DNA from: Prosthecobacter sp.
GTDB taxonomy: Bacteria > Verrucomicrobiota > Verrucomicrobiia > Verrucomicrobiales > Verrucomicrobiaceae
Length of the DNA stretch: 64,000 nucleotides
Direction: 5' to 3'
Assembly: GCA_021733925.1 (NCBI GenBank)
Contig: JAIPJY010000017.1
Location: 57,354 to 121,353 of the forward strand
The notes beneath the pieces are model-generated. The model searched no databases. It had not been told where the DNA came from and was given only the letters and a program-made list of their open reading frames with translations. Every line of letters begins with the position of its first letter. The stretch's first letter is position 1. Positions 1 through 6,058 of the stretch are shown in pieces. Position numbers and translations under genes: made by a program.

Positions 1-731
1 AGCTGTTTGCCCTGGCCCGTGGCGCAGGTGTGGGCTTCGTCCACGATGACGCATTCCGGGGCGATGGAGAGGAAATGCTCGCGGTGACGCTCGCTTTTGA
101 TGTAGTCGAGGCTGACGACGACGAAGGGGTGCTGGTCGAAAAGGGCGGTGCCGGGAGGCAGGGACCGCTCGACACGACTGGCGCTCGACGAAGTGAGGGC
201 GATGGCGCGGATGTGGAAACGATTCTCCAATTCGCCCTGCCATTGATCCACGAGATGAGGCGGGCAGAGAATGGCGCAGCGAGTGATCTCGCCACGGTCG
301 AGCAATTCGCGCACGATCAGGCCCGCTTCAATGGTTTTACCGATACCCACGTCATCGGCGATGAGCAGACGCACCACGGGCAGGCGCAAGGCCATGAGCA
401 AAGGCACGAGCTGATAGGCACGTGGCTCGACGGCGATGTTGCCGAAGGAACGGAAGGGGCCGGCGCCGTTGCGCAGTTTCAGGTGGATGGCGTCACGCAG
501 CAAGGTGGCGGCCTGATGGCTGCCATGGCGGGAAGGGTCGGGGAGCGGAAAGGTGGCGGGCTCCGGCGGAGTGAGCTCGAGATCGGGCAGGATGAGGGCG
601 ATATCCTCCTCGGAACCTCCAAGTGGGCGCAGAGAGAGGGCTTCTGGCGAGGAGCCGGGCTGGACGACCCATTCACGACCACGGGCGCGAACCAGGGCTC
701 CTGGTGAAAATTCAGCAAAGGCGATGCTCAT
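1..731 (-). CDS. SNF2-family helicase, DrmD-like (N-terminal 243 residues, runs off left edge)
   Basis: The frame was read by hand on the minus strand and starts at ATG 731-729. The visible protein has an N-terminal module that begins MSIAFAEFSPGALVRARG, then a Q-motif-like VEPRAYQLVPLL at about residue 101, Walker A DDVGIGKT at 126-133, CPPHLVDQWQ at about 156 and the Walker B/DEAH box VIVDEAH at 228-234. This is the SNF2/RapA-like layout also found in DrmD of DISARM, a known phage-defence system; translocation on DNA is the family activity, and a defence role here is inference. The ATG shares the four bases ATGA with the stop of the upstream helicase, so translation is probably coupled. The helicase C-lobe and any further partner genes lie outside the window. 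Confidence 0.88.
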   Translation of the reverse strand, partial: MSIAFAEFSPGALVRARGREWVVQPGSSPEALSLRPLGGSEEDIALILPDLELTPPEPATFPLPDPSRHGSHQAATLLRDAIHLKLRNGAGPFRSFGNIAVEPRAYQLVPLLMALRLPVVRLLIADDVGIGKTIEAGLIVRELLDRGEITRCAILCPPHLVDQWQGELENRFHIRAIALTSSSASRVERSLPPGTALFDQHPFVVVSLDYIKSERHREHFLSIAPECVIVDEAHTCATGQGKQ

Positions 732-3700: not shown

Positions 3701-6058
3701 GCGTTCTGCTGGTGGCAAAGAACGAAGCAGGGACCAGCCCTGCTCTGCAGCTTGACTCAGGTTTACAGGCTGTTTATCGGCCGCAAAGAGCGAATCCTTC
3801 GCGGCGAGGTCGTCCAGTCCCCGAAAGTCGATGTCGAGGAGTTTCAACTGGCCCAAATTGGGATTGTTATAGCGCCAGCCTTTCCTCAGATCCCGAAGCA
3901 AGCGGTAGCCTAGCACGAAACGGGCGGCTCGATCCGCTTCCTCTTTGGCAAGACCGAACAATTCGGGCTCCTGGAGGTATTCGGCGAGGATGTTTTCGTC
4001 GGAGGTCTCGAAGCCGAGTGCCCGGAAAACTTCAACGCCCAGGTCGCCAGCGTGGAGCTTGCCGCCTTTGCTACGAAGGGCTGCGAGGAGTCCTGCGCGG
4101 ATCAGGAGGAGGTAGATGAAGTCGTTGAAGTGCCCGGCCTGGAGGGCGGCATCCTGGCGATTGTCGGTGAAGCCGAGGAGCTTGCGGAAGTCCGAGGTGG
4201 GGTTCTCTGGGACCGATGTTGCAAAATGTTGCCGCAGCATGGCCAGCGTAAGAACCGTAGTGGCTGAGGATCGGCCTTCACCTGAAAGGCCAGAAAGGCG
4301 GTTGATGTCCCGGCCATGCGCCTGATGCTCGTGTCCGCAGGAGAGGCAGAAGCGAAACTTGCCTGGGATGAACCAGAAGCGCCGTCCGCCATCTCGATGC
4401 CCGCGTGCATCGATCGATTCGGACCGGGGCTCAGCGCTCTTGTAGGTTTGTTTCACCCTCTCACCGGTCGCGCTTTGCTCCAACCACGAGTCGGGCAGGT
4501 CCTCCAAGCGCCCCTGATAATCCTGGCCGCCCCTGACCGGCATGAGGAAGCCGAAATGGCGCTGCTTGTCGTCGTTTCCCACGTCGTCGATTTCGCGCGG
4601 TGTGAAATGAGGGGCTGAGTCGGCGGTTTCCCACACGGGATGATACTCTTGCCCGCACTCCCGGCAAAAGTGGGTGCTGAAGAGCAGCACACCCTCCTGC
4701 TGGCGCCCAGGGGCGAAACGCTGAGCTTCAAGAGTGATCTGTCTTTCTGTGTCGGCCTCAAGGGTGCAAAGGACCTTTCCGGGGCCACTGATGAACTGGT
4801 GAAGCTTGAAAGCGAAGAGTGCGCGGCCGTCGGGCGTCGTGACTTCCTGTGCAGCGGTGAGGAACTGCTCCAAGGCTTGCCGAGCGAGCGCAGGATCGAC
4901 TTGGGCATCCGCCGCCAAGGTGGATGCCGCCTCTGACAAGCTGCGAGGGCGAGCGCGCTCGGGCTTGGATTGATCACGTATTCTCAGTCCGAGGGTTAGC
5001 TCGGTCCAGATGGCCAGCGGGTCGTCGCGGAACTCTTCCAATGTGGCCCAAGATTTAATGGACTGTCCGAGTCGGGAGGCGAGGGACGATCGAATGGCAT
5101 CTAGGCTGCGGGAAGGATTCGTTGTTCGCTCCAAGGTCTCGCCGATGACGTCATCTTCAGTCAACTCCGTGCCGAAGAGCTTGGAGGCCACACCCGCGAC
5201 TGTGCGCTTCTGGTCCTCGACGGAACCGGTGCTCGACATGGTGGCCGAGGTGCCGATGCAGAGCAGATTGTCCGCTTTCAGCCTCTGTCGAAGCCGACGC
5301 ACCAGCATGGCGACATCCGCGCCCTGACGACCTCGGTAGGTGTGCAGTTCGTCGAGTACAAGAAACTCCAGGCCTTCGCAGTTACGAACCACCTTGGAGT
5401 CAACTTCGGGGTCGAATCGGGTGAGGATCAACTCCAGCATCATGAAGTTGGTCAGCAGAATGTCGGGTGGATTATCTGCTAGCCGCTGACGTTCTGGACC
5501 GCTCTCCTGGCCGGTATAGCGGGCAATGGTCAGTCCGAGAGCCTCAGCACCCGGGTTTCCCAGAAATTTGCCAATTTCCTCCGCCTGGCTGTTTGCCAGA
5601 GCGTTCATGGGGTAGATGATGATCGCTCTCGTCCTGGGCGCGGGGTCTTTTTCCTTTTTGGTGAGGATGTGGTGAACGATCGGGAGAAAGAAGGCGAGAG
5701 ACTTTCCGGAACCTGTGCCGGTGGTGACGACATAACTGCGGCCGAGGCGAGCCTTGGTGGTGGCTTCCATCTGGTGCTTGAAGAGCTGAATGGATTGAAG
5801 TGGCAGGGGCGGCTTGCCGACCTTGAAAAGGGTCGCGCAGCCCGGGTGCAGGAGCCGCTCATTCACCAATTGCTCCACCGTGGTTGCCCTCTGGTAGTTC
5901 GGGTTGATCTGGATGAGGGGTTCCGGCCAGTAGCGTCCGCGCTCATAAGCCTTTTCGACCTCAGCCGCTATGTCTTCCGCTGCGATCTTGACAAAACTCC
6001 GGGAGAAGGAGCTGTAGCTGTCGATGAGGTCGTTGCGGAAGAGGAAGACGTTTTGCAT
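728..6058 (-). CDS. Giant DEAD/DEAH helicase with C-terminal DUF1998 (MrfA/DruE-like)
   Basis: This 1776-residue superfamily 2 helicase has Walker A TGTGSGKS at 113-120, DEAD-box-like DELH at 236-239 followed by TYRGRQGADVAMLVRRLR, motif III SAT at 271-273, and a motif VI QRSGRAGRSGQ in the second lobe. Between and after the lobes are paired cysteines (CRECG, CLSCG, CTHCG and CDHCG) that look like zinc ribbons. The C-terminus carries the DUF1998/MZB signature CEAGCYQCLLSYYNQ. The length and the helicase-DUF1998 fusion resemble DruE of Druantia more than DrmA/DrmB of DISARM, where the two parts are separate proteins. It is the first gene of an operon with the SNF2 helicase (ATGA overlap). It lies in a probable tRNA-bounded element, which supports an anti-phage or anti-plasmid role, but no partner such as DruH or a methylase is visible. 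Confidence 0.9.
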   Translation of the reverse strand: MQNVFLFRNDLIDSYSSFSRSFVKIAAEDIAAEVEKAYERGRYWPEPLIQINPNYQRATTVEQLVNERLLHPGCATLFKVGKPPLPLQSIQLFKHQMEATTKARLGRSYVVTTGTGSGKSLAFFLPIVHHILTKKEKDPAPRTRAIIIYPMNALANSQAEEIGKFLGNPGAEALGLTIARYTGQESGPERQRLADNPPDILLTNFMMLELILTRFDPEVDSKVVRNCEGLEFLVLDELHTYRGRQGADVAMLVRRLRQRLKADNLLCIGTSATMSSTGSVEDQKRTVAGVASKLFGTELTEDDVIGETLERTTNPSRSLDAIRSSLASRLGQSIKSWATLEEFRDDPLAIWTELTLGLRIRDQSKPERARPRSLSEAASTLAADAQVDPALARQALEQFLTAAQEVTTPDGRALFAFKLHQFISGPGKVLCTLEADTERQITLEAQRFAPGRQQEGVLLFSTHFCRECGQEYHPVWETADSAPHFTPREIDDVGNDDKQRHFGFLMPVRGGQDYQGRLEDLPDSWLEQSATGERVKQTYKSAEPRSESIDARGHRDGGRRFWFIPGKFRFCLSCGHEHQAHGRDINRLSGLSGEGRSSATTVLTLAMLRQHFATSVPENPTSDFRKLLGFTDNRQDAALQAGHFNDFIYLLLIRAGLLAALRSKGGKLHAGDLGVEVFRALGFETSDENILAEYLQEPELFGLAKEEADRAARFVLGYRLLRDLRKGWRYNNPNLGQLKLLDIDFRGLDDLAAKDSLFAADKQPVNLSQAAEQGWSLLRSLPPAERSKIGQLVFDSMLRDLCVESEYLDPARQDSAKAAIFSHLTERWALGSDENLATTKYLILDRRPDAKGKKKRDDLIGGGPRSRLVREIRYSDLGAQHDLRTTPGEVLVELVRAFLTCAAKGGYVSSSNRGPSLIGWALKDTALSWQLNETPIKADGRINAFFRDLYISVAELLGTPGHYFFDFEAHEHTAQVDSDNRKILEARFRQSDLDRKWWKESGQKGPLIRLPVLYCSPTMELGVDISALNTVYMRNVPPTPANYAQRSGRAGRSGQAALVVTYSAAMSPHDQWFFHHSDEMVHGVVKAPTLDLANRNLIESHIHAVWLASVECRIGTSIAPLLDLNTKEKPLESSLKEVISDPAVERRAIIAAKAVIAQVDSELSGLAWYSSDYVETVIQRSAGAFAKAFDRWRELYDATHKQMASADAINKSPATSPADRDNAKRRYLDAVNQLKVLLKTSGGQNNDFYTFRYLASQGFLPGYNFPRLPLMAWIPSTGRKKNGKDDSGNMVSRPRFLALSEFGPRSLIYHEGRMFRVVRAKLNVTAADHITSDSKLATLNALVCTHCGYGHLGRPEDPEPKHHVCDHCGEGFSPEARVNELYRIETVETKPVERISANDEERQRQGFDIITTYRFLPGTGGAPDKQVAKVTLGDDTVADLTYSPAASLWRINRGWKRRKDKKQLGFYINPLTGLWSKQDEAEGSSQGDDQESAEDTASAKTASQRIVPFVEDHRNILILKPDMMQQAAMATIQAAMKRGIEQTFQIESSELVVEGLPTPQERRSLLLYEAAEGGAGVLNRLATDRTQLAQVARLALSVMHYEMPEGSFTKDDLKDTAGAQAGEKALHCEAGCYQCLLSYYNQPDHEIIDRRNAAALSFLVSLANGTVEPFHLEVPVPKNPGDESPDSITQWLAEISRLGLRQPDKLAVPINGDEATADAAYQAARALIFLSTPTAATIAYAQDRGYTIIVFPSDTADWPAIFTSHTAIFGTPSSPA

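Follow-up and report, generated by a model that had tools for sequence, protein, structure and literature searches.

A very probable ARMADA Type I operon of Prosthecobacter sp. combines a degenerate Vsr domain with an HNH nuclease gene

A 64,000-nucleotide stretch of Prosthecobacter sp. DNA (the window; contig JAIPJY010000017.1, C9:57354-121353), from a 7.3-Mb genome in 127 contigs, opens inside an operon encoding two helicases, which an earlier note, made from the sequence alone, had singled out as a candidate defence system. Because the window lies inside a larger contig, its left flank could be read. The operon comprises eight co-directional genes (YprA, SNF2, YhcG, methyltransferase (MTase), P5, HNH, P7 and P8), with intergenic gaps from P1 to P8 of -4, 11, -10, 65, 84, -13 and -4 bp:

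728..6058, minus strand: P1, YprA-family helicase, 1776 aa, with DEAD, Helicase_C, MZB/DUF1998 and a degenerate Vsr-type C-terminal domain
731..1018, minus strand: degenerate Vsr/DUF559-type nuclease domain of P1, residues ~1681-1776, boundary approximate
1..731, minus strand: 5' part of P2, SNF2/RapA-like helicase, 945 aa (full gene L003:10248-13085)
L002:16806-17882, minus strand, left of the window: YhcG/DUF1016 nuclease
L002:12613-16815, minus strand, left of the window: P4, PglX-like methyltransferase (Eco57I/N6_Mtase)
L002:11675-12547, minus strand, left of the window: P5
L002:10796-11590, minus strand, left of the window: P6, HNH_2 nuclease
L002:10206-10808, minus strand, left of the window: P7
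L002:9670-10209, minus strand, left of the window: P8

P1 is the 1776-residue DEAD/DEAH-DUF1998 helicase that had been described: its DEAD (94-276), Helicase_C (1010-1054) and MZB/DUF1998 (1533-1636) domains all exceed the Pfam cut-offs, and it contains the motifs TGTGSGKS at 113, DELH at 236 and QRSGRAGR at 1045, together with two CxxC pairs at 465 and 571. Its stop codon overlaps the start of the SNF2 gene by 4 bp (ATGA), the coupling noted before. P2 carries SNF2-rel_dom and Helicase_C domains in Pfam. To call it DrmD-like, as the earlier note did, was fair but loose: the NCBIfam DrmD model gave 344 bits against a cut-off of 610, and in PADLOC, DrmD (300 bits) scored below a model labelled DpdE (693 bits, residues 8-943). 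This model (PDLC02853) covers the SNF2 protein over its full length and the NCBIfam DpdE model scores far below its cut-off, so the label may mislead. The MTase matched Eco57I and N6_Mtase in Pfam, weakly matched PglX models in PADLOC and NCBIfam, also matched Type IIG models in PADLOC, and contains NPPW and DPSCGSGHF motifs. YhcG carries a PD-(D/E)XK domain (PF06250, 163 bits). Motifs that we take to be the catalytic ones were found in the YprA, SNF2, MTase, YhcG and HNH proteins, and P5, P7 and P8 matched no family among the PADLOC, Pfam and NCBIfam models.

The pair of helicases thus stands as claimed, but the operon is not a two-gene novelty, as the flank adds an MTase and two nuclease genes. 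With these, the flank completes not a standard DISARM or Druantia set but a third, later-described one, and we assign the operon to ARMADA Type I with high confidence. In the main text of the preprint describing it (Bell et al., bioRxiv 2025, PMC12458937), Type I consists of YprA, then a BrxHII/RapA-like helicase, then a PglX-like MTase, and is named by its YprA clade and by two genes shared with DISARM; its YprA is said to have BrxA-like and zinc-binding inserts and to end typically in a Vsr-type domain predicted to be an active nuclease. The same text reports anti-phage protection for ARMADA Type II in E. coli. Our operon has a YprA with fused DUF1998, a RapA-like SNF2 helicase and a PglX-like MTase in the same order. 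It differs from the published description in that YhcG is inserted between SNF2 and MTase, the Vsr domain is present but has lost its catalytic residues, and an HNH gene is added.

As a yardstick we used the ARMADA Type II island of E. coli ATCC 8739 (L151), where ArmA-D, DruE and DruH were assigned by gene order and product names. P1 matched ArmC (35.6% over 233 aa, E 8e-30), P2 matched ArmA (27.8% over 636 aa, E 7e-49) and P4 matched ArmB (23.8% over 799 aa, E 2e-33). The Type II island likewise sits at a tRNA gene with an integrase, but its order is SNF2-MTase-YprA followed by a RelE-GajB-like helicase, and it has a UvrD-type ArmD; neither ArmD nor DruH of E. coli has a homolog among P1-P8. 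In a YprA tree rooted on DruE, our protein and the other sampled relatives, 39 in all, formed one clade apart from ArmC. This was a quick tree that includes no labelled Type I protein and in which ArmC and DruE form long branches, so the exact placement of our YprA is uncertain.

The claim that the operon fits neither DISARM nor Druantia was borne out by both the models and the partner genes. DISARM class 1 shares a YprA-type helicase, an SNF2 helicase and an MTase (PADLOC DrmMI, 233 bits), but has separate drmA and drmB where ours has helicase and DUF1998 fused; it was rejected on this fusion, on the subthreshold DrmD score and on the lack of a PLD (DrmC-type) match in P1-P8. For Druantia, DruE models are the best PADLOC matches of P1 (312 bits), yet P1 matches E. 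coli DruE at only 28.8% over 302 aa, the partners are SNF2 and MTase, and no other Druantia family appears among the listed PADLOC matches of P2-P8; with DruH also lacking, this system was rejected. Dpd was rejected on NCBIfam scores of 215 against 500 bits for DpdE and 97 against 800 for DpdJ, and on the absence from P1-P8 of deazapurine-insertion gene matches in PADLOC, Pfam and NCBIfam. The proposed Pfam search confirmed the helicase domains, and PADLOC 2.0.0 labelled the parts DruE, DpdE and DrmMI, a warning for the annotation of ARMADA. On the Nocardioides plasmid pNOCA01 (L159:4682-30979), annotated DISARM drmA and drmB directly precede a helicase-helicase-MTase set resembling that of ARMADA, with an AAA ATPase and McrC behind it.

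To place the Vsr domain among its relatives, we used 97 loci (L003 and L024-L119). Six with a short or broken YprA (L024, L034, L038, L039, L093 and L103) were excluded, leaving 91, and L077, whose contig ends inside the YprA tail, was not scored, leaving 90 readable tails. The species-genome scan gave at least 558 relatives, of which the best 80 were kept, so our locus counts cover the nearest relatives rather than the whole of Type I. Among the 69 named loci that offer 4 kb of room or more, 67 have YprA, SNF2 and MTase in this order; the exceptions are L098 (overlapping open reading frames, ORFs) and L119 (SNF2 on the opposite strand). The six Vsr columns E, D, D, G, H and D are all kept in 35 of the 90 tails; in the other 55, which include ours, H is absent from 54. 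These counts describe the split into intact and degenerate tails and are no test of it, because a motif search on the same residues made the split. Independent of that search, DUF559, at E up to 0.1, matched all 24 intact tails submitted (of 35) and none of the 25 degenerate tails submitted (of 55). Profile comparison showed that, outside the zinc-knuckle stretch, degenerate and intact tails are homologous (99.0%, E 5e-18).

The ratio of nonsynonymous to synonymous substitution rates (dN/dS) was, for the tail, 0.12-0.36 in those degenerate pairs that gave finite values (7 of 10) and 0.04-0.10 in all four intact pairs, measured over only 78-122 codons and with several dS values saturated; for the YprA core it was 0.035-0.13 (13 of 14 pairs). 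Purifying selection is looser on degenerate tails.

The distribution of the HNH gene largely follows the state of the Vsr domain. Homologs of P6 were searched in 78 genomes, covering 79 of the 80 named loci (L054 excepted), and in 15 further genomes (ours and 14 relatives). Absence was called only with at least 15 kb of room (10 kb in an earlier tree analysis), which left 27 of the 90 loci unscored. An HNH homolog lies downstream in 47 of 48 assessable degenerate-Vsr loci, including ours, L025 (16.9 kb away) and L026, and in 6 of 15 assessable intact-Vsr loci (9 without). Gamma proteobacterium HdN1 exemplifies a degenerate Vsr with HNH, and Thauera sp. 28 an intact Vsr with HNH. Of the 53 strong matches in the 78 genomes, 46 are found downstream of YprA, on its strand and no more than 25 kb away; four of the remaining seven come from genomes in which the YprA contig stops early (L052, L094, L102 and L103). 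The nearest HNH lies 3.5-18.7 kb from YprA over 49 loci, 27 seen in the locus DNA itself and 22 via the contig, whose length agreed on re-check. MTase and HNH genes overlap by 4 bp in L076, L085 and L090, and genome G153 holds both arrangements, a degenerate locus with HNH (L098) and an intact one without (L115).

The HNH_2 family model had no match in 15 of 19 intact-Vsr genomes searched, and by position its matches in the remaining four are not at the intact locus. Pfam gave no HNH match for ten genes that lie after or close to the MTase in distant or HNH-less loci. Loci L027-L037 were unscored for HNH, and their genomes were searched for P6. No homolog was found in the intact-Vsr genomes G043, G065, G071, G042 and G050 or in the degenerate-Vsr genome G060; the degenerate-Vsr genomes G004 and G077 and the intact-Vsr genome G015 gave matches that were weak or on other contigs, and in G095 (intact) the match was confined to the N-terminal part. 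The G095 match (L149:1783-5498) is a 233-aa ORF with 75% identity to residues 13-103 of our HNH protein, and comes after a 1005-aa gene that looks reverse transcriptase-like by eye.

Homologs of the operon helicase also occur on plasmids, and we hand-picked ten further plasmid loci for spread from 40 listed of 67 plasmid records, with the tails unread before picking and the Vsr/HNH pattern already known. HNH was present in four of five degenerate loci (Acidithiobacillus caldus, Paracoccus, Sphingomonas MM-1 and Hydrogenimonas, where HNH lies across the record start and matches P6 at 34% over 246 aa) and in none of five intact ones (D. radiodurans, D. radiophilus, Nocardioides, Rhodococcus and, with only 8.8 kb of room, Roseomonas). 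Fisher values of 0.048 for these plasmids and 2e-6 for the main set take no account of relatedness, and we do not treat them as proof.

The YprA tree bears on the order of events. All HNH-bearing rows fall within one 62-row clade (Shimodaira-Hasegawa-like approximate likelihood ratio test 100), made up of 53 rows that are all degenerate and 9 betaproteobacterial rows, of which 7 have an intact Vsr; with DruE as root, intact Vsr without HNH is basal. This suggests one gain of HNH, followed by about three decays of Vsr, all within the HNH-bearing clade. The HNH-first order assumes that Vsr was not regained, although regain is compatible with the tree alone, and only about three independent events lie behind it.

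Based on these data, we favour, with moderate confidence, a reading in which the HNH protein took over cutting from the fused Vsr domain, and hold it about equally probable that our operon is a nuclease-swapped variant of ARMADA Type I. The MTase would mark host DNA, and the YprA helicase and RapA-like SNF2 translocase would act on unmarked incoming DNA. Cutting, formerly by the Vsr domain fused to YprA, would now be done in trans by the HNH protein, and the degenerate Vsr domain may remain as a structural or docking part. The HNH protein fits a restriction-type nuclease: a model built from the relative in L049 (18-row alignment, mean predicted local distance difference test (pLDDT) 91) is similar to VcaM4I (E 2e-8) and, weakly, to TagI (E 0.06), whose entry describes it as modification-dependent. 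More tentatively, and we consider this doubtful, in one large clade within Type I the fused Vsr may have become a non-catalytic docking domain that loads trans nucleases, with HNH as the standard one and exchangeable extras, such as YhcG or the PDDEXK_4 protein of a sister locus, in a variable slot.

Several observations weigh against a handover of cutting to HNH. HNH is also present in six intact-Vsr loci and is thus not in every case a replacement for Vsr; a strict swap, with HNH restricted to degenerate-Vsr loci, was dropped for this reason. L026 was counted as HNH-bearing despite a distance of 39 kb, degenerate L043 has no HNH within its 16 kb of room, and G060, which holds degenerate L029, has no P6 homolog in its genome, though its YprA contig ends early. 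On the Kozakia plasmid, which is degenerate, HNH was not found and IS21 stands behind the MTase. The fewest changes on the tree are three for Vsr and two for HNH, which are few events, and an independent-pairs test over three pairs showed no association (HNH the same way in 0.0 and the other way in 1.1 on average). A model of the degenerate tail (pLDDT 87) had no solved relative at E ≤0.001, and its homology to Vsr therefore rests on the profiles.

HNH and MTase could also be a separate pair, which would count against the handover: an ordinary restriction-modification pair travelling with the helicases, with ARMADA acting by helicase or by another nuclease. The position of HNH near the MTase, the resemblance of its model to VcaM4I and TagI, and the Type IIG matches of P4 are all compatible with such a pair. 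However, the MTase is core even in loci without HNH, HNH tracks the state of the YprA domain, and the great majority of strong HNH matches lie downstream of YprA on its strand. We therefore consider this explanation rather unlikely.

Less probable still is that YhcG, rather than HNH, is the effector nuclease of our copy. Its PD-(D/E)XK domain and its place in the operon, 11 bp from SNF2 and overlapping the MTase by 10 bp, would suit such a role, and in the sister locus L025 this slot is filled by an unrelated PDDEXK_4 gene. YhcG has no homolog in the other 96 loci compared, whereas HNH recurs; as a general replacement nuclease it was dropped on that account, and it is probably a lineage-specific extra of our copy. 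Across loci, the SNF2-MTase gap is a variable slot holding YhcG, PDDEXK_4, Schlafen-type and VapBC genes:

L002:16806-17882, L025:6879-8126, L028:2677-4185, L041:18070-19497 and L152:24734-25368: variable-slot genes

Other accessory genes were observed around the core. A gene of 650-700 aa, from one family (L040:22980-25037 and 26 more ORFs), often follows the MTase whether Vsr is intact or degenerate; the one member tested for it shows a weak likeness to LmuB and DUF2326. A P8 homolog (43% over 171 aa) lies at L031:1394-2194, upstream of an intact-Vsr YprA in another genome.

The operon is carried on a 61.4-kb integrative element between a tRNA-Tyr gene and its 79-bp partial copy:

10359..11696, minus strand: phage-type integrase, 445 aa, at the right end of the element (PF00589, E 6e-13)
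11788..11866 (C9:69141-69219): right attachment-like repeat, 79 bp, copying the tRNA-Tyr 3' part and flank
C9:7677-7762, 49.6 kb left of the window: tRNA-Tyr
L120:11810-14124, L120:14653-15678, L121:301-9987 and L122:6735-7688: type III-B CRISPR locus and viperin

The adjoining integrase had been recognised correctly. The suggestion of a tRNA-bounded element holds through tRNA-Tyr and the repeat, although ARAGORN calls no tRNA within the window itself. The left repeat copy (C9:7704-7782) and the right one lie 61,437 bp apart and differ by 1 mismatch in 79 bp, and G+C is 58.8% inside the element against 60.8-60.9% in the flanks. Left of the window, the same element has a clustered regularly interspaced short palindromic repeats (CRISPR) array, in which 33 repeat copies were found, with Cas1, Cmr1, Cmr3, Cmr4, Cmr6 and Cas10 and two CARF proteins. 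Next to the CRISPR genes, on the same strand, lies a gene for a prokaryotic viperin (pVip, 272 bits), so that a type III-B locus and a viperin sit together on a mobile element. That the operon serves DNA repair or housekeeping, as some YprA/MrfA helicases function in repair according to the preprint's main text (PMC12458937), is very improbable given the protection of E. coli by ARMADA Type II reported there, the CRISPR locus and viperin on the same element, and the patchy occurrence of homologs, also on plasmids (matched in 65 of 96 relatives' genomes, many in the helicase core alone).

The kind of system is already known as ARMADA; the degenerate Vsr domain and the recurrent HNH gene are the new part. 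The main text of the preprint contains neither YhcG nor DUF1016, and HNH in one reference title only (PMC12458937). None of the papers found gave ARMADA an HNH or YhcG component or described a Type I Vsr that is degenerate; the preprint's supplement, which may hold these, lay outside the search. A 2026 review counts ARMADA among the systems whose mechanism of restriction is unknown (PMC12904381). For the HNH takeover that we favour, the relatives offer a natural series, Vsr only, Vsr with HNH, and HNH with degenerate Vsr, which lets one ask which nuclease cuts. Judging by this series, a multi-gene defence system may exchange its effector and keep its helicase core; if the docking reading were true, the effector could change while the helicase does not.

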